64,000 bases of DNA, from assembly GCF_001438695.1 (NCBI RefSeq), contig NZ_JQBH01000003.1, forward strand, positions 1 to 64,000. Reading direction: 5' to 3'. Made by a program: the position numbers and the translations under genes. The notes beneath the pieces were generated by a model. It searched no databases, had not been told where the DNA came from, and was given only the letters and a program-made list of their open reading frames with translations. Source of the stretch: Fructobacillus fructosus KCTC 3544. Its GTDB lineage: Bacteria > Bacillota > Bacilli > Lactobacillales > Lactobacillaceae. Shown here piece by piece: positions 46,190 through 64,000 of the stretch. Position 1 is the stretch's first letter. Each line of letters starts with the position of its first letter.

Positions 46190-46232
46190 CGATAGACCAA
46201 TGATTTTTGTTCTAAAATTAAGAATATAGAAC
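46190..46232 (-). promoter_or_regulatory. Very short CRISPR leader overlapping the csn2 end
   Basis: Only 28 bases separate the newest repeat from the csn2 stop codon. A 6-12-6 inverted repeat GTTCTA...TAGAAC (46209-46232) spans the stop and the leader. The usual type II-A leader end ATTTGAG is not seen. Pre-crRNA promoter elements must lie in csn2 or be supplied by cas read-through. Confidence 0.5.
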
Positions 46233-46892
46233 AAAATCTTGATCAATATGAAAATGGCAATAGTGTTCATCAGAAAAGTTAGGTTTCTCCAAACTAAGAT
46301 CAATAGATATAAGATTAACACCTTCAGCTAAAAGGCATTCATGGAGTTGATTTAAATCTGACAATTTACAATAGAGTGATGCATTCGTTAAGAAGAGATA
46401 GCGACTCTCGTCTAACATCCCCATCACATGTATAACTTCTTCTATTTTACCAAAAATTGTACTGTTATTCCCTTTTTCAACTACAATATTTTGAGAATGG
46501 AGTAACCTTTCTAATTCCCATCCTTGTGATATTTCAAATGGTAAATTGTTATCAATTATTTCTGAAGCAATTACGCTTTGTATCTTCTGATTAAGTTGAA
46601 AAAGTTCATGTATTCCTTCTTCAGAAATGCTTTGTGCTAATATTTTAGGAACAAATTTAGAATAAAAACCTCTTATATCACGACCACTCACGGGATCACC
46701 AATTAACAAGCCACTTTTGCACAATGGCTTTATTTTATTATCATAGCTATAAATAATGTCGTCTTCAATGTCATTACTCAATTTCGCAATTAATCGTAAG
46801 TACAACTCAGAATTTGCTACTGTAATTAAATTAAGCCCTGAATTCATTTTTAAAACACCGACCGTTTCGATTGAAATTTGTTCATTTTTCAT
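46218..46892 (-). CDS. csn2: CRISPR-associated protein Csn2
   Basis: A 224-residue Csn2, the ring-shaped DNA-end-binding protein of type II-A spacer acquisition. The pattern is the family's: an N-terminal strand region, a variable helical arm (DIEDDIIYSYDNKIKPL) and the C-terminal FLTNASLYCKLSDLNQLHECLL segment. Length fits the short Csn2 class (about 220). Its ATG overlaps the cas2 stop by four bases. Its 3' end runs almost to the CRISPR array, closer than is usual. Confidence 0.92.
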   Translation of the reverse strand: MKNEQISIETVGVLKMNSGLNLITVANSELYLRLIAKLSNDIEDDIIYSYDNKIKPLCKSGLLIGDPVSGRDIRGFYSKFVPKILAQSISEEGIHELFQLNQKIQSVIASEIIDNNLPFEISQGWELERLLHSQNIVVEKGNNSTIFGKIEEVIHVMGMLDESRYLFLTNASLYCKLSDLNQLHECLLAEGVNLISIDLSLEKPNFSDEHYCHFHIDQDFVLYS

Positions 46893-47194
46893 ATAACAAT
46901 CACCTTATCATCACGATTTTTAACATCTGTTTTCAGTTCACCAGTTAAAAAATGCATGCTCGCATATTGCTTTTCTGTCACCTGAAGCGTCTGAATCACA
47001 CCATTTGTAGGAGCAAAACGAGCAATGCGATTTTCCAATAACTCAATTGCTTTTCCATTTGTAGCCACACGTACATAAATACTTTCTTGTATCATTAAAA
47101 ATCCTTCACTCAATAAAGCTTTGCGAAACTGTCGATAAGCTTTTCTTTCAAGCGATGTTTCCACAGGAAGATCAAACATCACGATAAGTCTCAT
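46889..47194 (-). CDS. cas2: CRISPR-associated endoribonuclease Cas2
   Basis: A 101-residue Cas2 with the ferredoxin-like fold start MRLIVMFDLPVET and the metal-binding Asp in MFDLP. With Cas1 it forms the spacer integration complex. An alternative ATG at 47209 overlaps the cas1 stop (ATGA), but the family N terminus and an upstream GAGG favour the ATG at 47194. It overlaps csn2 by four bases. Confidence 0.93.
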   Translation of the reverse strand: MRLIVMFDLPVETSLERKAYRQFRKALLSEGFLMIQESIYVRVATNGKAIELLENRIARFAPTNGVIQTLQVTEKQYASMHFLTGELKTDVKNRDDKVIVI

Positions 47195-47205
47195 AATTCG
47201 ATACC

Positions 47206-48081
47206 TCATAATTCAAAGTCCATTTCTGGCAATTCACTATCGTCAGAGCAAAGATACTTTAAGCACTCCTGTACATGTTTTTGCACTGCTTGTGCCAATT
47301 CATATCGTTTTGAATTCATAGTAATTTCTTCATTCAAAACACTTACTAAATTTAACTTATGCTCTAATGTTAGCGGACTATCACGTTGCCACTTCACAAT
47401 TCGATCAACATACGGCCGAAAAGGCTCCATTAAATCCGATGCCAAATTGAAAGGATTCGTTTGCGACTGATGATGAACTCCAATTTGCGTTAAAAATCCT
47501 GCAGCTACGATTTCTCGAGAAACAGCGGATAATAAAATGGAATAACCATAATTCAAGTGTGCGTTTGCTTTCAAAGAATCATTTGAACGAACAAAATCCT
47601 TATCAAAAATCCTTGGAAAATATAATCTTGCTGCCTGACCTTCTCGATTATCCTCATCTGCTTCCTTAACCTCCAACCCAATTTCTTTCAATTTCCCATA
47701 ATTAGCTATTACTTTTTCGCCGAGAGCTTGATGCTGGTTGAAAATTTTTGTTTGAACGATCTTTTGCCACAATAGATTCTTTCGATTCTCTGCCCAATCA
47801 AATTGTTTCCAGATATTTATATTTTGTTTAGTGTTATCACAGTAGCTTAAAAACTCGCCTACCGGCATTCCTTTTTCATCACAATTGATTATTTTGACAT
47901 TCTTTTTCTGAAGTTCATTAACTGCATAAGAAGTAATCACAGTACGAGTATTACCTAAAATTAGAACCCGGATATCATCTATTGGAATTCTTGTCCCTCC
48001 TTCCTTTGTCTGGATGTTTATATCATTCATTTTGTAGTTGATTTTTGCATGTTCGTTAACAAAAACTGTTCTCCACGCCAT
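47206..48081 (-). CDS. cas1: CRISPR-associated integrase Cas1
   Basis: A 291-residue type II Cas1 (MAWRTVFVNEHAKINYK). The metal site is visible in the second half, with HLNYGYSILLSAVSREIV, GVHHQSQTNPFNLASDLMEPFRPYVD and surrounding conserved acids. It starts nine bases after AGAGGAG. The 239-base gap to cas9 on its right contains the tracrRNA on the opposite strand and a bidirectional terminator, so cas1-cas2-csn2 probably need their own weak promoter or read-through. Confidence 0.95.
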   Translation of the reverse strand: MAWRTVFVNEHAKINYKMNDINIQTKEGGTRIPIDDIRVLILGNTRTVITSYAVNELQKKNVKIINCDEKGMPVGEFLSYCDNTKQNINIWKQFDWAENRKNLLWQKIVQTKIFNQHQALGEKVIANYGKLKEIGLEVKEADEDNREGQAARLYFPRIFDKDFVRSNDSLKANAHLNYGYSILLSAVSREIVAAGFLTQIGVHHQSQTNPFNLASDLMEPFRPYVDRIVKWQRDSPLTLEHKLNLVSVLNEEITMNSKRYELAQAVQKHVQECLKYLCSDDSELPEMDFEL

Positions 48082-48083
48082 AA

Positions 48084-48114
48084 TTGTGCACTCCTCTATT
48101 TTATATGCTATAAT
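48084..48114 (+). promoter_or_regulatory. tracrRNA promoter
   Basis: An extended -10 TGCTATAAT (48106-48114) with TTGTGC 19 bases upstream (48084-48089). It would start the tracrRNA near 48121. The cas9 promoter has the same TGCTATAAT extended -10. Confidence 0.7.
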
Positions 48115-48120
48115 TTATTC

Positions 48121-48270
48121 ATGGTTAGCTACCATACAAGCAAGAATTGTTTAGCTAACTATTCTTGCTAGGAAGAACCCATTAATCTGACATACAGGGT
48201 TAAAGTAACGCAAGGGCTTCAGCCCAAGCTTCATGAACTTTTAAAAAGTTGGCCTTATGGCCTTTTTTAT
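48121..48270 (+). ncRNA. tracrRNA of the type II-A system
   Basis: Anti-repeat from 48171 (GGAAGAACCCATTAATCTGA, then CATACA) pairs with the CRISPR repeat across nearly its full length, with a bulge near GGGT. A short AAAG-containing lower stem follows, then a GGGCTTC-AGCCC hairpin (nexus region), a small AACTT/AAGTT hairpin and the terminator GGCC-TTAT-GGCC followed by TTTTTT (48251-48268). Upstream of the anti-repeat lies a further hairpin, GCAAGAAT/ATTCTTGC (48140-48168). The RNA is on the plus strand, opposite to all cas genes, between cas1 and cas9. Confidence 0.9.
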
Positions 48271-48286
48271 TGCTTAAATATAAGAA

Positions 48287-48318
48287 AACGGTTGGCAGAA
48301 AACTACCAACCGTTTTTT
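48287..48318. terminator. Bidirectional terminator downstream of cas9
   Basis: AACGGTTGG / CCAACCGTT arms around a 10-base loop, with A and T runs; it separates cas9 from tracrRNA and cas1. Confidence 0.85.
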
Positions 48319-48320
48319 AC

Positions 48321-51300
48321 TTACAATAAATCTGAAATCTTAACCCGTGTTTCGAAAATCCCTGTAGCTGATTGATAGATCATTTCACTATTATCTGATA
48401 GTTTTATTCCTCCAGATTGTTGTAACTTATGCCAATCAGAAACCTTTTTACTAATTATTTTTACAGGTGCTTGATAGGCAGCGTCTATCTGTAATCCTCT
48501 CAAAATAGTTTGAATGACCGCAATTCTTTTATCACTATCCAAAAATTCGTCTCTAACTTGACTTAATTTATCAATATCCTTCTTGAAAAACGGAAAACGA
48601 TTCTTAACATTTTCACTAGTTAATATATCATACGCTTCCAATAATTCTTCATCACTTGAATTTTCAGAAATACTAGCAATTTTATCCGCATCAGTAGTGG
48701 ATAACCACAACTGTTTAGCATTATGACGATATTCGTTAGATGCAAGATAAATCAAATTTCCATCTTCATTAACAAGTTGCCCCAATGGGAGTTTTGAAAT
48801 CAATATTTTTTCAAATTTTTTAATTGCAGGGTTATTTACTATATAGTCATTAATTTTCAAGTTTCCTACTTCAATTTGATTTGCGATAGAGATAGGAATT
48901 TTAATAAGTAAATTTTTGCCATTAGCTCTTACTAACGTCATGTAAGCTGAGTATACGTTACTATAACCACCATACAAAGCTGTATCACTACGTTTTGAGT
49001 TAAGAGGAATCAACTTTTTACCAGACTTTGGACTAAAGATAGTTTCTTTATTCAAAGGACCTCGATCTTTTTCAGTTTTCTTAGTTGTCAAGATGTTCTT
49101 AAACATCATCACCTTGCGAAGATAACTAGTATTTTCTTCTGACCAGTCTTCATTCCCCTTACGCATGGTTCCAACAACAAATCCGAAGGACTTTAGTCGG
49201 CGTACCTCATCCCTTGAAGAAAGTTGTCGCAAATTCTTTAGGTAATCATTTGTATAACGATCAAATTCATTGTAAACGTTTGTACTGTCACGGTCTGGAT
49301 AGCGATTCTGCATGTACTGTCCTGCGGCAGTAATCAGCAAAGCATCAAAGGCGTGGTGGAAAGAATTAATTTCGCGATGTTTCTTGATTCCCACCAAGAG
49401 TCGCATATCAGCAGTTATTTCTGAACGAATTGCTACAGCTTTACTATTCTCATATTCACCTTCAATCAGTGAAGCAACGTTCTTAATAATCTGACGTGTT
49501 TCAACCAGTTGTCGTGCAATAAATCCGGTTTTTTGTCCGTCTAAATATTTCCCCGCTTTTGTTAAGCGTTCATATTTTTTACGGTTTATAAATCCGGATT
49601 TCAAAAGACTTGTCCACAACGAACCATCTTGTTTTTGTACTTCATCCGTATAAGCGAAAGAGTCAGACTTACGAGCATTCTCTGGACGTGAAACTAAGAC
49701 ACGGTTATCAAGTGAATCATCCTTTGTAAAGGCTTGCGGAATGATGTGATCGATATCATAATCTTGTGACAAGCGTTCAAAATTAATTGGCCTTCCTGTA
49801 TACATATCCTTTCCTTGTTGCTGGAAATACAGGAAATAACGATCATCTGACATTTTATTCTTGTTGCCATCAAGTGTCTTTTTCAATACCTTAGCTTCTT
49901 CAGAAAGTGACTTTGATTGATATTTTTCTTTTAATTGGTTATAACGAGGAACCGAACGAACCGAAGTTTGATCTTCTCGAGCAAACTCCAAATAAACACG
50001 TCGCGGTTCTTCTTTCATTGCCTTCTTAATATCATTCAAAACAGCAAAAGACTGCTTAATACCACGTTTATTTGCTGGAGAGGTTGTCAATTCATTAACC
50101 TTTTCATCGAAGGTTAACTTTGATGAACCAGTGTTTTGTTCAGTTATCCAAGCCTGCACACCGTATTTGTCGTTATTAATGATGGACATGAAGTTCTGAC
50201 TTGTACTCTTTAACTTGTCTAAAATTGAAACTTTTTGTCCGCGTTCATCAATAATTTTGCTATCCAATAATTTTTCAGAAAGACGTCCCCAACCTGTATA
50301 GTGCGTTTGAGACAACTTCTTTACTTGATCATCATCTAGGGGTAATTTTGACAATTCCCGACTAGCAATTTTACTATCTTCAAAAACCGTTTGAATTTCG
50401 ATAATCTTTTCAAGTGTTTCCTGATTATCTTCATTTTCTAAATACTCAGCATCAAAAGTTTTTTTCAAATCGTTATACGAAGACAATGAACTATTGAACT
50501 TACTTTCATCAGCAAGACCAGTAATTGTCACATCACCCTTACCTTGTGCCTTAAGATAATCTTTCAAAGCTGAAAGCGAAACGGTCTTTCGCGCCTTAAA
50601 CAAATCATTAATTAAATCTGCTTTTGTTTTAGAATCAAACTTTTTACCGTTCACACGAACATTGTTTAATTCATTTAAAACAGTGAATAATTGATAACGT
50701 AACGAATTTTGCGGTAATGTCTTCTCACCAATCAAATAGGTATCATTACCAGTTAATCGTTCAATAAAGTCACGCGCTGCCTTGTCACGGTTAAAGACTT
50801 TATCAAAGTTCCATGGCGTCACTCGACTCTTCTCAAAGCCTTCATTTCGCTCTACCCAGTGATTGTCAGCATCCCCGCCTGCATGCTCTACATCCTTTTT
50901 CGTCACCAATGGACCAACGTAATACGGAATCCTGAAACGAAGTAATTCTTCAATCTTATTGTCTTGACCATCTTCCTTTTCAAAAGTATCCAGTAAGAAT
51001 GGATAGTATTGTCCTTGGTTTTGAAGAATCTTTTGTAATTCTGCGAGATGAAGCTGGTGAGGAATTACTGAATTTGCCTTTGTACGTTGCTTTGGAAGGA
51101 ATTCATTTTCATCTAAGCGACGAAGTGTATCTTCTTTCACTTCTTTGGAAAGATTTGATTCCTCAACCAACTCACGAGCAGTAGAAATTCCATTTTTAAT
51201 TGTTGCTTCATCCGTTGCTAGGGCCAATTGCTCATAGATCTCTGAAAAACGTTTATGCTTTAATCCTGCTTTTTGTGCTAAGGACTTTAACAATTTACGG

Positions 51301-52292
51301 TCTTCTCTATGTTGGTCGTAAAGTTGAACCATTGCAGCAGAAACAGAGTCTGCCCCATTCAATAAACCAATTAATACAAAACCGTCGTATGCTTGCACTA
51401 CAGCATGGAAGAGCTCAATTTCTTCATCAGTCAATTGAGACAAGATCGTCTGACTTTTTTCTTCTAAAGCTTCATCATCTAGCTTAAGTTTCCATAACTT
51501 AGCCTCGTCTTTATCAGAAATATCTTTACCAAATAATTTGGCAAAATCGATTTGATTTCCGGTTAATCCAGCTAATAAAGTTTTAATGGCAACTTTGTCT
51601 TGATTATTATCAAATTCGAAGAGCTTGAGTGCCTCATCAGCTTTCATACTCTTGTTTAGGCCATAACCAGCTTCTCCAGAAATAATCTCAGTTAGTTGTT
51701 CTGGATTATTTAATTCCCAAGACAAACCTTTCTCATCAGCATAGACCTCAATTGCATTGGCAAGATCCTCGGGATTATATGTTGACCCAATCGTAATTTT
51801 TTCTTGGGAACTTAAAAAATGACCACGATATTTTACAAGATGATGAATTGCCAAATAGATTTCGCGAATATCAAATCTCTTATTTGGTTGAGCCATCAAC
51901 TCTTGTCGTAAATGATAAATTGTTGGATAAGAACGATGAAATTTTTTTGTCTCTTCTTCCGTTGGGAAAAGGTATCCACCATAATAATGTGCTTTATTTT
52001 CTTCATCCTTAGGATGGACATAAGAGTACTTCAAGCGTTGGAAAAATGATGAATCAATCTCGTTAATTTCCGCTGAGAATAACTCGTCTAACAAACGTAA
52101 CCGCCACTTTCTTCTTGAAAGCCTACGTCGTGTCGTTCGAAATCCACGCCGGTCGGCTGCGGTTTGGGCCGTATCAAATAAACGGACACCGACTAAATTT
52201 TTACCTTTAGCGCGTGCCAATTTTCCATTTTCATCTAAGGCAACCCAACCAACTGAACCTGTTCCAATATCTAATCCTACGTCGTAAACCAT
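48321..52292 (-). CDS. cas9: Cas9 endonuclease, type II-A
   Basis: A 1323-residue Cas9 from ATG 52292 (six bases after AAGGAG; an upstream in-frame ATG would lack a site). RuvC-I reads YDVGLDIGTGSVGWVAL with Asp8, followed by the arginine-rich bridge helix RRRLSRRKWRLRLL. RuvC-II is KEEPRRVYLEFAREDQ, and the HNH motif DIDHIIPQAF carries His849. RuvC-III HHAFDALLI follows. All nuclease residues look intact. The C terminus ends QSATGIFETRVKISDLL, similar to the family, but the PAM-reading Arg-Lys-Arg of S. pyogenes Cas9 is replaced by Ser-Gly-Gly-Ile-Lys, so the PAM should differ. Confidence 0.98.
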   Translation of the reverse strand: MVYDVGLDIGTGSVGWVALDENGKLARAKGKNLVGVRLFDTAQTAADRRGFRTTRRRLSRRKWRLRLLDELFSAEINEIDSSFFQRLKYSYVHPKDEENKAHYYGGYLFPTEEETKKFHRSYPTIYHLRQELMAQPNKRFDIREIYLAIHHLVKYRGHFLSSQEKITIGSTYNPEDLANAIEVYADEKGLSWELNNPEQLTEIISGEAGYGLNKSMKADEALKLFEFDNNQDKVAIKTLLAGLTGNQIDFAKLFGKDISDKDEAKLWKLKLDDEALEEKSQTILSQLTDEEIELFHAVVQAYDGFVLIGLLNGADSVSAAMVQLYDQHREDRKLLKSLAQKAGLKHKRFSEIYEQLALATDEATIKNGISTARELVEESNLSKEVKEDTLRRLDENEFLPKQRTKANSVIPHQLHLAELQKILQNQGQYYPFLLDTFEKEDGQDNKIEELLRFRIPYYVGPLVTKKDVEHAGGDADNHWVERNEGFEKSRVTPWNFDKVFNRDKAARDFIERLTGNDTYLIGEKTLPQNSLRYQLFTVLNELNNVRVNGKKFDSKTKADLINDLFKARKTVSLSALKDYLKAQGKGDVTITGLADESKFNSSLSSYNDLKKTFDAEYLENEDNQETLEKIIEIQTVFEDSKIASRELSKLPLDDDQVKKLSQTHYTGWGRLSEKLLDSKIIDERGQKVSILDKLKSTSQNFMSIINNDKYGVQAWITEQNTGSSKLTFDEKVNELTTSPANKRGIKQSFAVLNDIKKAMKEEPRRVYLEFAREDQTSVRSVPRYNQLKEKYQSKSLSEEAKVLKKTLDGNKNKMSDDRYFLYFQQQGKDMYTGRPINFERLSQDYDIDHIIPQAFTKDDSLDNRVLVSRPENARKSDSFAYTDEVQKQDGSLWTSLLKSGFINRKKYERLTKAGKYLDGQKTGFIARQLVETRQIIKNVASLIEGEYENSKAVAIRSEITADMRLLVGIKKHREINSFHHAFDALLITAAGQYMQNRYPDRDSTNVYNEFDRYTNDYLKNLRQLSSRDEVRRLKSFGFVVGTMRKGNEDWSEENTSYLRKVMMFKNILTTKKTEKDRGPLNKETIFSPKSGKKLIPLNSKRSDTALYGGYSNVYSAYMTLVRANGKNLLIKIPISIANQIEVGNLKINDYIVNNPAIKKFEKILISKLPLGQLVNEDGNLIYLASNEYRHNAKQLWLSTTDADKIASISENSSDEELLEAYDILTSENVKNRFPFFKKDIDKLSQVRDEFLDSDKRIAVIQTILRGLQIDAAYQAPVKIISKKVSDWHKLQQSGGIKLSDNSEMIYQSATGIFETRVKISDLL

Positions 52293-52320
52293 TTCACTCT
52301 CCTTAAAGTAATATGTGTAC

Positions 52321-52329
52321 ATTATAGCA
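52321..52329 (-). promoter_or_regulatory. cas9 promoter (extended -10)
   Basis: TGCTATAAT on the minus strand, with TATAAT at 52326-52321. It places the start about 22 bases before the cas9 ATG. Confidence 0.65.
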
Positions 52330-57836: not shown

Positions 57837-58280
57837 TTAAACTAACTTGTTGATGTCAAGCACTTCAGGCTTTTGTGCAGCGTGGTTGTGATCCGCTCCA
57901 GCGTATACGTGGAGGTTCAAACCTTGCTTGCGACCCAAAGAAGTCTTAGGCAACATACCCTTGATTGACAATTCCAACAACTTTTCTGGATCGTATTGGC
58001 GGTAGTTACCAGCCGTACGTTCCTTCAAGCCACCTGGGTGGTTTGAGTGGTGGTAGTAAATCTTGTCAGTTGCTTTCTTACCAGTCAACTTTACTTCACC
58101 GGCGTTGATGATGATGACGTTGTCACCCATGTCAACGTTAGGCGTGAAAGTTGGCTTGTTCTTACCACGCAAAATGGCGGCAACAACCGTTGACAAACGA
58201 CCCATTACGACGTCCTTTGCATCAATGATGTACCACTTCTTTTCGATTTCGCCTGGCTTTGCTAAAAATGTTGTACGCAT
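57837..58280 (-). CDS. rplM: 50S ribosomal protein L13
   Basis: A 147-residue L13. Conserved blocks [20 protein letters not shown] and [10 protein letters not shown]-type sequence (here [20 protein letters not shown]) are present. It leads the rplM-rpsI operon behind a structured leader that probably provides feedback. Confidence 0.97.
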
Positions 58281-58301
58281 GGCGCGCTCCTTTAATTAGT
58301 T

Positions 58302-58370
58302 GTTTACAATGTCTGAGCGTTCCTTCTCAGACGGTTACAATAAGTTTCCGGGGCTTATCGTGAGGTAAAC
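58302..58370 (-). promoter_or_regulatory. L13-type leader RNA before rplM
   Basis: On the minus strand GTTTAC/GTAAAC closes a junction with two inner hairpins: CGATAAG/CTTATTG, and a perfect 7-bp GTCTGAG/CTCAGAC (58311-58332). This matches the layout of the L13 leader known in Bacilli, where L13 represses its own operon. Transcription should start near 58377. Confidence 0.8.
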
Positions 58371-58383
58371 AATACCGATTTAC

Positions 58384-58412
58384 AGTATATAAAATATCGG
58401 GCAGAGTGTCAA
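58384..58412 (-). promoter_or_regulatory. rplM-rpsI promoter
   Basis: Minus-strand TTGACA (58412-58407), exact 17-base spacer, TATACT (58389-58384). Confidence 0.88.
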
Positions 58413-58556
58413 CGATAAATGGCGGATTCGCGGGCTTTTTTACAAGATTCCCACCGACTTTTAAAAAAGGCATTTTGAAAATGTCCCCTAAAAAAATCTT
58501 TTCGCAAGTCATCCCCGCTAATTTTCTAAATTAAAGAACAAAATTCAAGGAAATAT

Positions 58557-58568
58557 CCTATTAATAGG
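58557..58568. promoter_or_regulatory. Palindrome in the adhesin promoter
   Basis: Perfect 12-base palindrome CCTATTAATAGG immediately before the -10 box TACAAT (58570-58575). It is a candidate operator. Confidence 0.5.
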
Positions 58569-58595
58569 TTACAATGTTTGAGAAAGGAGAGAAGT

Positions 58596-60050
58596 ATGAG
58601 AAGAAGACACAGTATTCAACAGCTTTGTTTGTTGATTCTTGCGGCGTTAACCCTTGGGTTATGGACAGTTAGTCACGCCAGCAAAGTTTCAGCAGCTGAA
58701 GCGAATCAATACGTTACTAGCGCCTCCCTGAAGGATCTAACGAACCCGACGGCTGACCCATACGGTCCCATCGACAATATGCAGGTTACCTATGGTTATA
58801 AGATTCCCAGTGGGGCGCTGAGCGACCAAAGTCGTGATAGCTCGATTACCGTGCCCGAACAGTTTACCATCCTATCGGTCATTAACTTTGACATCAAGGA
58901 TGCCTTAGGCCAAGTTGTGGGGGTTGGGACAACCGATCCAGCAACTAATCGGATTAACATTCACTACACCGACCTAGCGCTAAAGGAAAACCAGACGGAC
59001 GCCATTAGCGGCTCCCTGTCCATTACCATGCACTGGAACCTGGACAAAGTCAACACTGGCAAGGCCACGGTGATCAATTGGAATCTGCCCGATCGTGATG
59101 GCACCACGCCAAACGCGAACACGGTCAACATCAATCCCGCTACTGGTCCAGCCAGTGACGAAAAGTTGGCCAAGTGGTCATGGTACGATCCCGACGACCC
59201 CTCCATCTTGCACTGGTGCATTCGCGTGAACTACGCCCGTGACCACGTGGAAAACGCCGTGATTCATGACCAATTGACTGGTAACCAAGTGTTAACGGGT
59301 GACTTTAACATCCGCCAGGTTCGCTACAATGCCGATGGCACGACTTTTACCACCATTAGTCTGGCGGATAATCCTGCCGGCTTTGTCAAAGATAGCGCGA
59401 CGAGCTTTCACGGTGACCTCGGAACCATTGACGACACCTATCTGATTTACTACGAAAGTAAAATCACCGATAGTGGTGTTCAAAAGAAATACGGGAACTC
59501 GGTTGACTTAACGGGTCAGAATACAACGCCCGAAACGCAGGACGTTTATTCCCCAACGTATGCCGGTTCCGGATCCGCTACTTTCCATGGCGATAACACG
59601 CCAAAGAAGCCGGATACACCGAAGGTCCCTGATACGCCTAAGCAACCCGATACACCAAAGGTGCCGGATACGCCTAAGCAGCCGGGCACACCAAAAGTAC
59701 CGGATACTCCAAAAGTGCCGGACACGCCTAAGCAACCGGATACACCGAAGGTTCCGGATACACCGAAGGTTCCGGACACCCCTAAGGTTCCGGATACGCC
59801 TAAGCAACCGGATACTCCAAAAGTGCCGGAAACCCCTAAGGTTCCTGTTGAGCCAGCGCAAGCAGCTGTCGCAACAAAGAATGAAACACCCACAAAGCAA
59901 CAACCTGCTTCAACAATTACCAACAGTGTTCCTACTCCGCTAATGCCGGAAACAAATAAGAAAGCAAACCCTCAATTTATTAAGGGCTTGTTGACTGCCT
60001 TAAGTGCTTCAGTTACACTTTTTCTTATCGTAAACACAAAGAAAAAATAA
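58596..60050 (+). CDS. Wall-anchored adhesin with Pro-rich PDTPK repeats
   Basis: A 484-residue surface protein. A signal peptide (about residues 1-35, ending near KVSAAE) is followed by a two-part adhesive region (about 40-330) resembling collagen-binding MSCRAMM modules (WCIRVNYARDHVENAVIHDQL). Residues about 340-430 form a stiff stalk of repeated five-residue units (KVPDT/KQPDT). The C terminus has the sorting layout, with a hydrophobic helix and a Lys tail, but the motif reads MPETN instead of LPxTG. The ATG at 58596 follows AAAGGAG; the frame extends earlier without a site. It is a candidate for host or plant-surface binding. Confidence 0.8.
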   Translation: MRRRHSIQQLCLLILAALTLGLWTVSHASKVSAAEANQYVTSASLKDLTNPTADPYGPIDNMQVTYGYKIPSGALSDQSRDSSITVPEQFTILSVINFDIKDALGQVVGVGTTDPATNRINIHYTDLALKENQTDAISGSLSITMHWNLDKVNTGKATVINWNLPDRDGTTPNANTVNINPATGPASDEKLAKWSWYDPDDPSILHWCIRVNYARDHVENAVIHDQLTGNQVLTGDFNIRQVRYNADGTTFTTISLADNPAGFVKDSATSFHGDLGTIDDTYLIYYESKITDSGVQKKYGNSVDLTGQNTTPETQDVYSPTYAGSGSATFHGDNTPKKPDTPKVPDTPKQPDTPKVPDTPKQPGTPKVPDTPKVPDTPKQPDTPKVPDTPKVPDTPKVPDTPKQPDTPKVPETPKVPVEPAQAAVATKNETPTKQQPASTITNSVPTPLMPETNKKANPQFIKGLLTALSASVTLFLIVNTKKK

Positions 60051-60072
60051 GTAACTTATCATAGTATTGATA

Positions 60073-60117
60073 AAAGGACCAGCCGATTTCAAGTGAAATT
60101 GGCTGGTCCTTTTTTTA
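60073..60117 (+). terminator. Terminator of the adhesin gene
   Basis: AAAGGACCAGCC / GGCTGGTCCTTT arms and a T-run. Confidence 0.85.
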
Positions 60118-60702
60118 TAATCGGTCGTCATGAAAAGACCGGCGGTTACCAAGGCAACCACCGATCAATTCAGACAGAGGGAATTACTCACTGTCAACAT
60201 CCCGCAGCATTGTGAGCAAACATGAGAGAAGAAACAAGCTGATTAAAAGAGGATAGCAGCGCAAATTTCTATCGTAACCAAAACACCCAGGCAAAGAAAC
60301 GAAATCAGTGAAGGTCAGCAGCGCGCGAACGGTAAACGCCGGAGAAGCGCTTACCATGGATCATCACGCCAATCTTATGACACCAGACTAGTATAGGAAG
60401 AGAAAGTGTCAGTCGACAGCTCGAACACTGCTTCTATTGATTCGCTGACAAAAGTGGGTTCGTATTTTGGTCCCTCTGTCTGCTTTATTTATACCACGAT
60501 TCGTGGTAACTGGCAATCATTTTATTTATATTTTTAAATTATGTTGCAGTATTATGCAATAATTTAAAATATGTATTGTTGGATCTAGCGACTTTTTTAA
60601 CAGTGTCTAATGGATAAGTATGGGAAGAACTGAAAAAGTTCAGGCGATAAACCGAAAGGGAAAAAGCAGTCCAAGTGTTTCTCCACGGGGTTGCTGGCAA
60701 TT
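60118..60702. other. Gene-poor stretch with inverted repeats
   Basis: No gene is supported with confidence here. A weak minus-strand frame of 57 residues spans 60184-60357 (ALLTFTDFVSLPGCFGYDR in the middle) but has no ribosome site. The stretch holds several hairpins and a perfect 7-3-7 palindrome. A minus-strand TATACT near 60390 could start an RNA reading leftward. It may be a small RNA or a decayed gene. Confidence 0.4.
60492..60508. repeat. Perfect palindrome TACCACG-ATT-CGTGGTA
   Basis: Arms 60492-60498 and 60502-60508 are exact reverse complements, the size of a dimeric repressor site. It is separated from any clear promoter, and its target is unknown. Confidence 0.6.
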
Positions 60703-60733
60703 AAAAACGACTGCCCGTACAGCAGCCGTTTTC
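60703..60733 (-). terminator. Terminator of the bacteriocin-like peptide operon
   Basis: ACGGCTGC / GCAGTCGT stem with flanking A and T runs, 20 bases after the second peptide gene. Confidence 0.8.
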
Positions 60734-60754
60734 AATCAAATCATTAATCAGTCA

Positions 60755-60907
60755 TTATTTGCCTAAGAGCCCATCACAAAATCCATGGGCAAATTGGCTC
60801 ACCGCTCGTCCTAGGACAAGCCCACGGTTGCCCATGCCACCATGCACTTCGGCTAACTGATTGACAGCTAAATTAACATAACGTTCACTCACCATAATAC
60901 CCTGCAT
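60755..60907 (-). CDS. Double-glycine leader peptide B, class IIb bacteriocin candidate
   Basis: A 50-residue peptide too short for standard calling. The leader ends NLAVNQLAEVHGG, with Leu at -12, Leu at -7, Val at -4 and Gly-Gly at -2/-1, the export-cleavage pattern used by peptidase-containing ABC transporters. The predicted mature peptide has 26 residues, begins MGNRGLVLGRAVSQFAHG and ends FCDGLLGK. It contains a GxxxG motif (GLVLG), one cysteine and a net positive charge. AAGGGAG lies six bases before the ATG. It starts 27 bases after peptide A and shares its promoter and terminator. Confidence 0.72.
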   Translation of the reverse strand: MQGIMVSERYVNLAVNQLAEVHGGMGNRGLVLGRAVSQFAHGFCDGLLGK

Positions 60908-60934
60908 TCTTTTCTCCCTTCTCTTTCTTCAAAC

Positions 60935-61063
60935 TTAACGGCCCATCACAATGGAACGAACTAACCGACCACACGTATACCCCACTTGATAGGCGATGGA
61001 ACGTCCGCCCAAAACTTCGTTTAGCTGTTCGTCATCAAGTGTTTGCATCGTTGTTTCGTACAT
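60935..61063 (-). CDS. Double-glycine leader peptide A, class IIb bacteriocin candidate
   Basis: A 42-residue peptide. The leader ends LDDEQLNEVLGG, with Leu at -12, Leu at -7, Val at -4 and Gly-Gly. The predicted mature peptide has 22 residues, begins RSIAYQVGYTCG and ends RLVRSIVMGR. It carries a GxxxG motif (GYTCG), one cysteine and four arginines. The start at 61063 follows AAAGGA; the frame stays open further upstream, but that part covers the promoter. Two-peptide bacteriocins typically consist of two such cationic, GxxxG-bearing peptides. No immunity or transporter gene is in the window. Confidence 0.72.
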   Translation of the reverse strand: MYETTMQTLDDEQLNEVLGGRSIAYQVGYTCGRLVRSIVMGR

Positions 61064-61130
61064 ATCGTGTCCTTTCTTACAAAAACAAATTCTCCAAACA
61101 AGCAATAAGAACTGGCCAGCTCTCACCTGA

Positions 61131-61159
61131 AATATAGCACGGCCAAATGGGCCGAACAA
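61131..61159 (-). promoter_or_regulatory. Promoter of the two-peptide operon with spacer palindrome
   Basis: Minus-strand TTGTTC (61159-61154), 17-base spacer and TGCTATATT with TATATT at 61136-61131. The spacer holds a perfect inverted repeat CGGCC-N5-GGCCG (61140-61154), a possible regulator site. The rest of 61160-61366 shows no supported gene; a strong AAAGGAGGGGG sequence near 61318 on the minus strand is not followed by a usable frame. Confidence 0.65.
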
Positions 61160-61367
61160 GAAGAATGATTGCAAAAAATAAATAATGAATCTTTTGATTT
61201 AGGATGTATAAAATACGTGAAAAGAGTGATTATCTGATTTTTAATTAGTGGGTTTAAAATACTGATTTTTATATATCGTTGAGAATGGTCACTCGTCAAT
61301 TAACTAAATCAGCCCCCTCCTTTCGCTCTTTTCAAAAAAACAAAAATTCCCGCCCTAACTGACCAAG

Positions 61368-61402
61368 AAAAAACAGCCGGACTTTCGTCTGACTGTTTTC
61401 TT
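61368..61402 (-). terminator. Terminator of the FMN-binding protein gene
   Basis: AACAGTCAGAC / GTCCGGCTGTT arms, then a T-run on the minus strand. Confidence 0.75.
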
Positions 61403-61403
61403 T

Positions 61404-61814
61404 TTAATCTTCAAATGTAAAGACTTCGTTACCAGCATAGGCTGCCAGACGGGCCGAGTGAATGGTCAGCTCTAGGAGCACTTCTTCCTCTGGGTGGGGA
61501 TGGTTCCGGTGAAAGACGGGATTTGTGAAGTAATCCTTGACGTCCGCCCAGTTTTTTGTCGAGGGACGCAATGTCGCTTGATTGGATTCAATCCGAGCGC
61601 CGTTTTCGTTCATGACCGTCATAATAGCCACCCGGTCATTGACTTTTAAGTCCGCAATCTTGCCAGTATCTGGTTGGCTGACCAAATACCAGTGATTGTG
61701 CTGATTGGGGTCCATTGCAAAGCCCATGATGCGTAGGCTGGGCTGCCCATCTTTTTCGGTGGCAACGTAGAGCAATCCCTTTGCTGCCAGTGCGTATTCT
61801 TCAAATAGCGTCAT
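61404..61814 (-). CDS. Pyridoxamine 5'-phosphate oxidase-like FMN-binding protein
   Basis: A 136-residue split-barrel flavoprotein of the PNPOx-like group. Residues 1-75 follow the family pattern (LLYVATEKDGQPSLRIMGF, then HWYLVSQPDTGKIADLKVNDRVAIM). It is far shorter than true PNP oxidase and lacks its C-terminal dimer part, so the reaction is unknown. It follows truA by 12 bases and probably shares its transcript. Confidence 0.75.
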   Translation of the reverse strand: MTLFEEYALAAKGLLYVATEKDGQPSLRIMGFAMDPNQHNHWYLVSQPDTGKIADLKVNDRVAIMTVMNENGARIESNQATLRPSTKNWADVKDYFTNPVFHRNHPHPEEEVLLELTIHSARLAAYAGNEVFTFED

Positions 61815-61826
61815 GTTGCCTCTCCT

Positions 61827-62609
61827 TTACTTATCCAACTGACCATCGTAATCAATATGGTCCAAATACAATCCTGCTGCAGGTGCCGTATAGCGCGCCT
61901 GTTCGCGATCTTTTGCCGCAATCAACTTTGGAATGGCATCGACGGGGCGACGCCCCGTTCCAATTTCAAGTAGAACACCGACCATAATTCGAATCTGATT
62001 ATACAAGAAAGCATTGCCTTCGAAAGTAAAGACCAATTCCTGTTCGTCTTCTTTCACCTGCACCTCGGCGCGCGTAATCGTCCGGATAGTTGTCGCTGTC
62101 TGATTACCAGAAGCAGCGAAGGTAGCAAAGTCTTGTTCACCAATCAAATCCGGCAAGGCTTTTTCAATCCGCTTTGGATCAAGGTTCCAGTGAAAATGGC
62201 CTGTATACCGCCGCTTGAAGGGGTCCACGTAATCCTGAGTGGACACCCGGTAATAATAGCGCTTGTTGTGCGATGAGAACCGAGCGTGAAAGTCGTCTTG
62301 TACCTGACGGACTTCCTTAATCAGGATATCGCGGGGCAAAATGGTGTTCAATCCCTTTCGCACGCCTTCGCCGGGGATGTCAAAGGGCAAGTTAAAGTGG
62401 ATGACCTGCCCGTTGGCATGAACGCCGGTGTCGGTGCGGGAAGCACCGACGACTTTAATGCGCTCGGCCGGATTCTTTCCCATTTGATTAACTGCTTTAA
62501 TGAGCTCCCCTTGTACGGTTCGGTGCCGTTCGACACCGTTTTTAGACTGTACTTGAAAGCCTAAAAAGTCTGACCCGTCGTAGGCAACCACTGCTCGATA
62601 GCGTGGCAT
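61827..62609 (-). CDS. truA: tRNA pseudouridine synthase A
   Basis: A 260-residue enzyme making pseudouridine 38-40 in tRNA. The catalytic Asp lies in GASRTDTGVHANGQVIHF, and the YRYRV-like block is KRYYYRVSTQDYVDPFKRRY. It follows ecfT with a 23-base gap, the standard ecfA1-ecfA2-ecfT-truA order in Firmicutes, just after ribosomal protein genes in many. Confidence 0.96.
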   Translation of the reverse strand: MPRYRAVVAYDGSDFLGFQVQSKNGVERHRTVQGELIKAVNQMGKNPAERIKVVGASRTDTGVHANGQVIHFNLPFDIPGEGVRKGLNTILPRDILIKEVRQVQDDFHARFSSHNKRYYYRVSTQDYVDPFKRRYTGHFHWNLDPKRIEKALPDLIGEQDFATFAASGNQTATTIRTITRAEVQVKEDEQELVFTFEGNAFLYNQIRIMVGVLLEIGTGRRPVDAIPKLIAAKDREQARYTAPAAGLYLDHIDYDGQLDK

Positions 62610-62632
62610 AAGAAGCTCCTTTCCATTCTTAT

Positions 62633-63433
62633 TTATGACACAAAATTTAAGGCAATGAACCCAAAGGCAAAGACCAGTACGGCCCCGAATGCCCAGGCAT
62701 CTGCTTTACTGTAAGACAATTCGCGATAACGAGTCCGTCCCTCGGCTGACTCGAAGCCACGGACTTCCATGGCGTTGGCGAGGTCCAGTGCGCGTTGCAA
62801 GGCCCCGACAAAGAGGGGGACCAGCAGTGGCACGACCGCCTTTGCGCGCTTAATCAGCGAGCCGGTTGATAGCGACATTCCTCGCGACTTTTGCGCCTTC
62901 ATGATCTTATCGGTTTCGCCCATTAACAACGGAACAAAGCGCAGCGCAATGGATAGCATTAGCGCCAATTCGGACACGGGCACCTTCACGACTTTGAGCG
63001 GTTTCAGGAGCGATTCAATAGCCGATGCGATGGCCGTCGGTGGCGTGGTAATCGTCAAGATGGTTGACATCAACACGATTAACACGAAGCGCACGACCAC
63101 GTAAAAGGCATTAATCAAGCCCGGCAGTGTGACTTTAACGGGTCCGAAAGCGAAGAGAACCGGTGTTCCACCTGAAAACAGCAATTGGAGCACCACGGTG
63201 AAGAGAATCAACCAAAGAATCGGCTTAATGCCACGCCAATACAGGCCAAGTCCCTGCTTTGTCAGTACGAGGGCCATTAACAAAAAGGCCGCTGACCAGA
63301 GATAGGTAGGCCAACTGTTGGCAAAAACCAGTAAGAACACGTAGGCAATCGTCATCAAGATTTTGGTACGGGGATCGAGTTTATAGAGAATCCCAGAACC
63401 CGGAACGAATTGACCAATCACTAAGTTATTCAT
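62633..63433 (-). CDS. ecfT: Energy-coupling factor transporter membrane component EcfT
   Basis: A 266-residue T component that couples vitamin-binding S proteins to the EcfA ATPases. About five to six membrane helices are present, and the two coupling motifs are visible as KAQKSRGM and NAMEVRGFE (the paired Ala-Arg-Gly motifs). The ATG at 63433 follows GGGGAGG and overlaps the ecfA2 stop by eight bases, so translation is coupled. Confidence 0.94.
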
Positions 63434-64000
63434 GATTTGCCTCCCCGTTTTCGCTAATGGTCGAGCCAAGCGTTTGGATTTTTGTCGGGTCAAGTTGTTT
63501 CTTAATCGCCTTGGCTAAATCCGGAACCGTCTTGCAGAGACCATCAAAAACAAAGCCCTTCTCTTCCAATTGCTTTTGGAAGGCAATGGTTTCCGGCAGA
63601 TCTAAGTGCTGCTCAGCAAACCAGGATTGAGGCCGTGAAAAAAGTTGGTCAACGGGTTCATCCGCCGCAATTTCACCATCTTTTAAAACCAGTACCCGGT
63701 CTGCTAGGGCCAGCACCTGATCCATTTGGTGAGAAATTAAAACCACGGTCTTCCCCTCGTCACGCAATGATTTAAGCAGATTCAAGAGTTCCTCTTGTCC
63801 CTGTGGGTCTAATCCCGCCGCTGGTTCATCGAAAACCATGGTCTGTGGATTCATCGCCAATACACCGGCAAGTGCGACTCGTCGCATCTGACCACCAGAT
63901 AAATTAAAAGGCGATTGCTCATAGAGCGTTGCATCAAAGCCAACTCGCTTTAAGGCTGTTTTTGCGGCTTTCTTCGCCTCTTCATCCGTTGCCCCAAAGT
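63426..64000 (-). CDS. ecfA2: Energy-coupling factor ATPase EcfA2, 5' end missing
   Basis: Partial gene: about 190 C-terminal codons are in the window, and the start lies beyond the right edge. The ABC signature [16 protein letters not shown], Walker [14 protein letters not shown] and the switch His in LISHQMD are present. It powers EcfT-based vitamin uptake with EcfA1. The frame runs through to the window end with codons such as [13 protein letters not shown] before the signature. Confidence 0.93.

Follow-up and report, generated by a model that had tools for sequence, protein, structure and literature searches.

A two-gene locus encoding double-glycine precursors

Two short genes, encoding the precursors of peptides that we call B and A, lie on the minus strand of the window, that is, the whole stretch of 64,000 nucleotides from Fructobacillus fructosus analysed here (Table 1). 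B is upstream of A with a gap of 27 nt, and each gene is preceded by a ribosome-binding site (AAAGGA for B and AAGGGAG for A). The first-pass annotation, made from the letters alone, had described two genes 27 bases apart, with textbook double-glycine leaders and cationic mature peptides of 22 and 26 residues that each carry a GxxxG motif; both open reading frames (ORFs) are where it put them, and its description holds. Both leaders have L at -12, L at -7, V at -4 and glycines at -2 and -1. The mature peptides have computed charges of +4 (B) and +2 (A), and their GxxxG motifs are GYTCG in B and GLVLG and GFCDG in A. Unmodified, the two mature peptides would have calculated masses of 2486 and 2704 Da. 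The largest hydrophobic moments, computed without a control, are 0.67 for B and 0.65 for A.

The leader signature was assessed with a strict rule combining L at -12, L or M at -7, I, V or L at -4, Gly-Gly and a ribosome-binding site. This rule returned two matches in 64 kb, exactly A and B, and zero matches in all 40 dinucleotide-preserving shuffles of the window, which places the leaders beyond chance. A looser rule gave 4 matches in the window versus 2.6 +/- 1.5 in the shuffles, and a tandem pair on the same strand appeared in 0 of 40.

One promoter and one terminator had also been proposed, and both can be located. The extended -10 promoter was read by eye, with its -35 element at 61159-61154 and its -10 hexamer at 61136-61131. 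It is absent from the output of a consensus scanner because TTGTTC matches TTGACA at 3 of 6 positions and the threshold is 4; promoter-like sites reported by this scanner are no commoner in the region than in shuffles (4 versus 3.6 +/- 2.0). From the one promoter and the one terminator hairpin we infer that the two genes form a single co-transcribed operon.

Table 1. Location of the peptide genes and of other features discussed in the text. Bare positions refer to the window; others carry their contig or locus.
Feature	Position	Strand	Description
Peptide B precursor gene	60935..61063	-	42 aa: 20-aa leader MYETTMQTLDDEQLNEVLGG and 22-aa mature peptide RSIAYQVGYTCGRLVRSIVMGR
Peptide A precursor gene	60755..60907	-	50 aa: 24-aa leader MQGIMVSERYVNLAVNQLAEVHGG and 26-aa mature peptide MGNRGLVLGRAVSQFAHGFCDGLLGK
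Promoter	61131..61159	-	TTGTTC, 17-nt spacer, extended -10 TGC-TATATT; read by eye
Palindrome CGGCC-CATTT-GGCCG	61140..61154	.	Overlaps the spacer and the final base of the -35
Operator-like palindrome GAACTGGCCAGCTC	61109..61122	.	Just downstream of the -10; comparative support from G006
Intrinsic terminator of the putative two-gene operon	60699..60737	-	17-bp hairpin and U run; folding z -3.17
Candidate structured RNA	60130..60482	-	Roughly 350 nt in length
Surface protein gene	58578..60050	+	Collagen_bind and Big_8 domains, long PDTPKVPDTPKQ-type repeat
CRISPR type II-like set	46218..52322	-	Includes a 1333-aa Cas9-like protein; by eye
C39/ABC exporter gene	G000:C1:173032-175194		721 aa
Second two-peptide cassette (B2, A2)	L060:8120-8433, contig C4	-	Two PF02517 genes come next, at L060:6678-8061
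LytTR-domain protein, candidate regulator	G000:C23:72744-73034 (L129)		About 9 kb past the window end
XRE-type regulators with double-glycine leader	L044:6645-6908, L075:1137-1424, L080:1312-1566, L082:1681-1938, L126:1122-1397		84-95 aa

Exporter and immunity-type genes elsewhere in the genome

Neither an exporter nor an immunity-type gene was recognised in the window, among ORFs of at least 100 aa across the 64 kb and of at least 25 aa in positions 58000-64000. Both absences had been pointed out before. For an immunity gene, none was recognised here either; the lack of an exporter is true of the window, but the host genome (G000; 1,484,857 bases in 45 contigs, 97.55% complete) has one in trans, on a different contig from the pair. 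It is the only C39-peptidase match in the genome, reaches 952.6 bits against TIGR01193 (cut-off 523.85) and has the Pfam domains C39, ABC_membrane and ABC_tran. The gene next to it encodes a 367-aa accessory protein (TIGR01000, 361.1 bits versus a cut-off of 258.85). Readable in the exporter sequence are DERDCGTACLAM, which we take to be the Cys motif, GVSGSGKST, presumably Walker A, and LSGGQ. Exporter and accessory genes are apparently intact, and the genome-wide absence of a C39 exporter, named earlier as an observation that would speak against a bacteriocin, was not what we found. A search for exporters limited to the neighbourhood of the peptide genes would miss such systems.

To judge by eye, the neighbours of the exporter gene are exoIII-like on one side and dnaQ-like on the other. 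The same place holds peptides, a PF02517 gene, an exporter and an accessory gene in G006, and peptides, an exporter and an accessory gene in G004. A leader scan of the 18-kb stretch around the host exporter found no GG-leader ORF. Upstream of this exporter a 62-aa protein with hydrophobic stretches is encoded (L003:9419-9607), for which Pfam reports nothing over cut-off.

PF02517, the CPBP (Abi) family, has six matches in the host genome, all outside the window contig. Two of these adjoin a second two-peptide cassette, B2-A2, which is also separate from the exporter. The immunity proteins PlnI and PlnL have been described as resembling the Abi family (PMC8538875), and a publication of 2019 spoke of the mechanism of CPBP/Abi proteins as a mystery (PMC6957408).

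Relatives of the pair and co-occurrence with the exporter

A DNA search with the locus in 13 genomes of the genus matched only the host genome itself. At the protein level, with 397 family genomes searched at E <=0.1, precursor A matched 5 other genomes (best E 0.0025) and precursor B matched 7 (best E 3.6e-4). Some of the matching places hold GG-leader peptides; L018, L019, L020 and L022 gave no GG-leader ORF. A close homologue of either precursor was not found in the 396 other family genomes, so the pair could be decaying or lineage-specific.

To evaluate more distant likeness, mature-peptide profiles were built from five relatives with peptides A and B left out, and 2000 shuffles were scored for each; this test is not fully independent, since some of the relative pairs or loci had been reached through matches of A and B themselves. 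Peptide A scores 19.7 bits against the A profile (best of 2000 shuffles, 9.7) and peptide B scores 8.9 bits against the B profile, a thin margin over the best shuffle at 8.2. In the cross-test, the A profile does not report peptide B, and the B profile gives peptide A 0.3 bits. Across the aligned peptides, GxxxG is present in 6/6 B peptides with both glycines invariant (G28 and G32 of peptide B), and in 4/6 A peptides; all six A peptides share F-x-x-G, with L18, G24, F39 and G42 invariant. The Cys of peptide B occupies the same column in one of the five relatives and that of peptide A in none. The inter-peptide disulfide suggested by the first-pass annotation is left without support from conservation, and we have dropped it.

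Profiles that include peptides A and B and the leaders matched 33 (B) and 30 (A) of the 397 family genomes at E <=0.01, many of the weak matches resting mainly on the leader. Within the genus, the exporter (E <=1e-100) and both peptide profiles (E <=0.01) occur in the same 5 of 13 genomes (G000, G002, G003, G004 and G006), and the remaining eight have none of the three. Were the occurrences independent, the odds of such a split would be 1 in 1287; shared ancestry makes it less impressive. The weak place among the five is G003, where both profiles match one and the same gene, mainly at its leader. A further 13 genomes, all from outside the genus, match both profiles. In six of these (G122, G198, G306, G332, G367 and G373) the B and A matches are neighbours on one strand with B first; G389 has them as neighbours in the opposite order, G111 has both on one gene, and in five (G027, G139, G274, G289 and G321) they lie apart.

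Gene content at the same locus in the genus

The interval between rplM and PNPOx/truA, which is the locus of the pair B and A, contains a fuller cluster in G002. It comprises an exporter, a PF02517 protein (39.5 bits), five GG-leader peptides, four of which alternate B/A in our own classification, and a 172-aa accessory-like protein that has no Pfam match and is 24% identical, over part of its length, to that of the host. At the same locus, G006 has one A-like ORF of 60 aa (L036:2018-2200), whose end GFTSGLLGN resembles the end of peptide A, GFCDGLLGK, and whose leader departs from the double-glycine rule; G004 has a 219-aa PF02517 protein (30.7 bits) with no GG-leader peptide found beside it. 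Elsewhere, G004 carries a B/A pair followed by a PF02517 protein (L044), on another contig than its exporter, and in G006 the order is A, B, PF02517 protein, exporter and accessory gene.

The contents of this locus in G002, G006 and G004, as well as the lack of an adjacent immunity gene, would fit a decaying cassette, in which exporter and immunity genes were once present at this locus as in G002 and have been lost, leaving peptides with little or no function. Yet both reading frames, their ribosome-binding sites and leaders, the promoter and the terminator are intact, the exporter and accessory genes look intact as well, and the second cassette of the host is likewise apart from the exporter. 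We regard decay as unlikely.

Operator-like palindromes and candidate regulators

The palindrome CGGCC-N5-GGCCG, to which attention had been drawn earlier, is indeed present in the promoter spacer, and the consensus scanner reports it as a terminator-like stem. In the promoter region of L036, which is related, it was not observed; the comparative support belongs instead to GAACTGGCCAGCTC, downstream of the -10. At the matching place in G006 (L036:1970-1983), upstream of the peptide-like ORF described above, lies the perfect palindrome GAACTGGCCAGTTC. The GAACTGGCCAGCTC-type palindrome has one match in the window at <=1 mismatch, compared with any match in 0 of 100 shuffles, and among 18 other loci searched at <=2 mismatches only L036 gave one. 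The palindrome TGTTAGCTAACA, which precedes three peptide genes of G004 and G006, was rejected: the window has only 2-mismatch matches to it, none of them at the operon.

In G006 and G004, the palindrome TGTTAGCTAAC(A/G) stands upstream of three groups of peptide genes, in each case before the leading gene (L043:6301, L051:6321 and L051:11593). It is likely an operator; the clusters with it also hold a 256-aa protein that starts with a helix-turn-helix (HTH_3 in G006; by eye in G004). The host genome has two LytTR-domain matches, one of them a candidate regulator on the window contig that is accompanied by a small membrane partner and ABC genes (Table 1), and three HATPase_c_5 matches, two over cut-off.

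Five XRE-type regulators from five genomes begin with a double-glycine leader. All five exceed the PF01381 cut-off, and in four of the five loci the gene is directly before, or divergent from, GG-leader peptide genes. Such a regulator is possibly bound or cut by the C39 exporter. Titles and abstract starts in the literature searched did not treat such leader-bearing regulators.

Other features of the window

Just downstream of the pair lies a candidate structured RNA with complementary ends, a terminator and, by eye, a promoter TTGCCA-N17-TATAAA whose spacer holds the palindrome ACCACGATTCGTGGT (60493-60507). Similar promoter regions occur at the same locus in G002, G004, G006, G008 and G010 (blastn) and in G007 (by eye). 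Fold z scores relative to shuffles are -5.45 for the window, -6.11 for G004, -6.95 for G006, -8.79 for G008 and -5.52 for G007. The closing helix differs in its letters yet remains complementary, over 10 bp in the window, 10 in G004, 13 in G006 and 10 in G008; in the predicted folds it has 5 bp in G002 and only 1 bp in G010. Four aligned rows share TGATGA and GCGGGATG without variation, and GCGGGATG was not found in G002, G004 and G010. No Rfam family is over threshold, the only matches being below gathering scores, and ARAGORN reports no tmRNA. We note it as a candidate conserved structured RNA without an Rfam match.

The window further encodes a CRISPR type II-like set and a surface protein (Table 1); several genomes of the genus have similar surface proteins at the same locus, either a single one or two.

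Probable assignment to class IIb

Class IIb peptides act jointly at an equal ratio, carry GxxxG or similar motifs and permeabilise membranes to cations and use membrane-protein receptors, that of lactococcin G being an undecaprenyl-pyrophosphate phosphatase, as described in PMC8538875. The locus has the adjacent genes in one predicted unit with different double-glycine peptides, a GxxxG-type motif in each cationic, amphipathic mature peptide, and a C39 exporter with its accessory protein in the same genome, on another contig. A dedicated immunity gene was not recognised beside the peptides in the nearby ORF lists. This counts against a class IIb reading of the pair: an immunity-type gene adjoins the second cassette of the host and the pairs of G002, G004 (L044) and G006.

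Peptides A and B are below the cut-off of every curated model touched among the Pfam and TIGR/NF families. Peptide A scores 18.4 bits (E 0.0014) against TIGR03949, the lactobin A/cerein 7B class IIb family, for a cut-off of 21.5, and has zero matches at E <=1 to NF038034 or PF11632 (cut-offs 37 and 29.4 bits). Peptide B scores 14.7 bits (E 0.03) against PF10439 Bacteriocin_IIc (cut-off 27.1). Some relatives do pass such models. The A-type peptide of G004 at L044:6159-6308 exceeds both NF038034 (55.3 bits) and PF11632 LcnG-beta (32.7 bits); two other G004 peptides score 36.5 and 18.7 bits against TIGR03949, and one A-type peptide of G002 scores 20.3 bits against NF038034. Solved structures were tried and rejected as evidence of membership: profile A1 returned nothing relevant, and the B-type profile retrieved PlnK, at E 2.1, together with the leaders of PCAT1-type substrates. 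Literature on Fructobacillus bacteriocins and class IIb genome mining, covered as titles and abstract starts, gave no description of the pair among the matches listed. By its anatomy the pair fits class IIb, and it belongs to no curated sequence family tested; it is a new sequence of a known class.

Because ComC, BlpC and EntF pheromones also have double-glycine leaders, the peptides might be secreted signals, either pheromones or an inducer with a partner, read by a histidine kinase. At E <=1, PF03047 ComC matches 4/6 A-type and 2/6 B-type peptides, and its cut-off of 20.4 bits is exceeded by two relatives of A type, at 23.8 and 20.9 bits; an operator-like palindrome is present in the promoter region, and two LytTR-domain proteins are encoded, of which the one on the window contig has a small membrane partner. 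The over-cut-off matches, however, span residues 1-25 and 1-24, essentially the leader. Peptides A and B themselves have zero ComC matches at E <=1, and B reaches 12.4 bits against NF033383, used as a test for EntF/BlpC/ComC pheromones (cut-off 35). Among the A-type relatives, one exceeds the cut-offs of two models for lactococcin G-beta, several cassettes are accompanied by PF02517 genes, and neither a kinase nor a response regulator was recognised when the ORFs listed near the peptide clusters were read by eye. Pheromones are not usually built as two different tandem peptides that both carry GxxxG. We give the signalling reading a very low probability.

That the ORFs, at only 42 and 50 aa, are chance ORFs of an intergenic region is hardly credible, given the 40 shuffles free of strict leader matches, the likeness to other B/A pairs and the co-occurrence with the exporter.

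Taken together, the homologous B/A pairs, the CPBP (Abi) genes and the exporters of relatives support the class IIb reading made at the outset, and we consider it likely that the pair encodes a class IIb two-peptide bacteriocin with the exporter acting in trans.

A proposed dispersed two-peptide system

We hypothesize that one promoter drives both precursors and that the C39/ABC exporter, with its HlyD-type accessory protein, would cut both leaders after Gly-Gly and export the peptides in trans. Outside the cell, B and A, probably once docked on a membrane-protein receptor, may pair as amphipathic helices through GxxxG-type contacts in the membranes of related bacteria, which would then leak ions. 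Immunity is not encoded beside the pair; it may be supplied by the CPBP/Abi proteins beside the second cassette or by others in the genome. The scheme predicts that both genes are expressed, that the exporter processes their products in trans, that the peptides pair and kill, and that the producer is immune; the pair would be antimicrobial.

The system looks dispersed, with its exporter in trans and no adjacent immunity gene, because the exporter is on another contig, the second cassette is elsewhere and G002 has a fuller cluster at the locus of the pair. A more far-reaching and tentative reading is that of a modular arsenal, in which one exporter serves scattered two-peptide cassettes and the rplM-truA interval is a site where genes for peptides, immunity and export turn over, in part controlled by a common GGCC-palindrome operator; the pair, lacking its own immunity gene, might then rely on cross-immunity from the CPBP proteins of another cassette or on receptor insensitivity. 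If immunity is truly in trans, the pair would allow a clean test of whether CPBP/Abi proteins cross-protect. It adds to class IIb a candidate pair whose mature peptides, at 22 and 26 residues, are very short, from a small-genome lactic acid bacterium.

Comparison with known two-peptide systems

Lactococcin G and enterocin 1071 consist, like the pair described here, of two cationic peptides with double-glycine leaders. The lactococcin G-beta-type relative in G004 and peptide A align in the ending F-x-x-G-F-x-x-G; peptide A nevertheless matches neither family model, and neither an exporter nor an immunity gene adjoins the pair. A pair in G245 (L115), which we take to be plantaricin NC8-like, is more distant: one of its peptides is recovered by the A-type profile (E 4.0e-5), and neither host precursor matches it directly at E <=0.1.

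For plantaricins JK and EF, the GYxxG segment of the B-type profile aligns with PlnK (2keg) at a value that is not significant. Their immunity proteins PlnI and PlnL are of Abi type (PMC8538875), as are the PF02517 genes adjoining the second cassette of the host, whereas the pair B and A has no adjacent Abi gene or exporter and its likeness to these plantaricins is limited to one motif. In the same genus, two contiguous bacteriocin peptide genes near an ABC transporter were found by BAGEL4 in Fructobacillus durionis and described as similar to chains A and B of bacteriocin LS2 (PMC9934391). Set beside these, the pair is part of an ordinary kind of system in a somewhat unusual arrangement.
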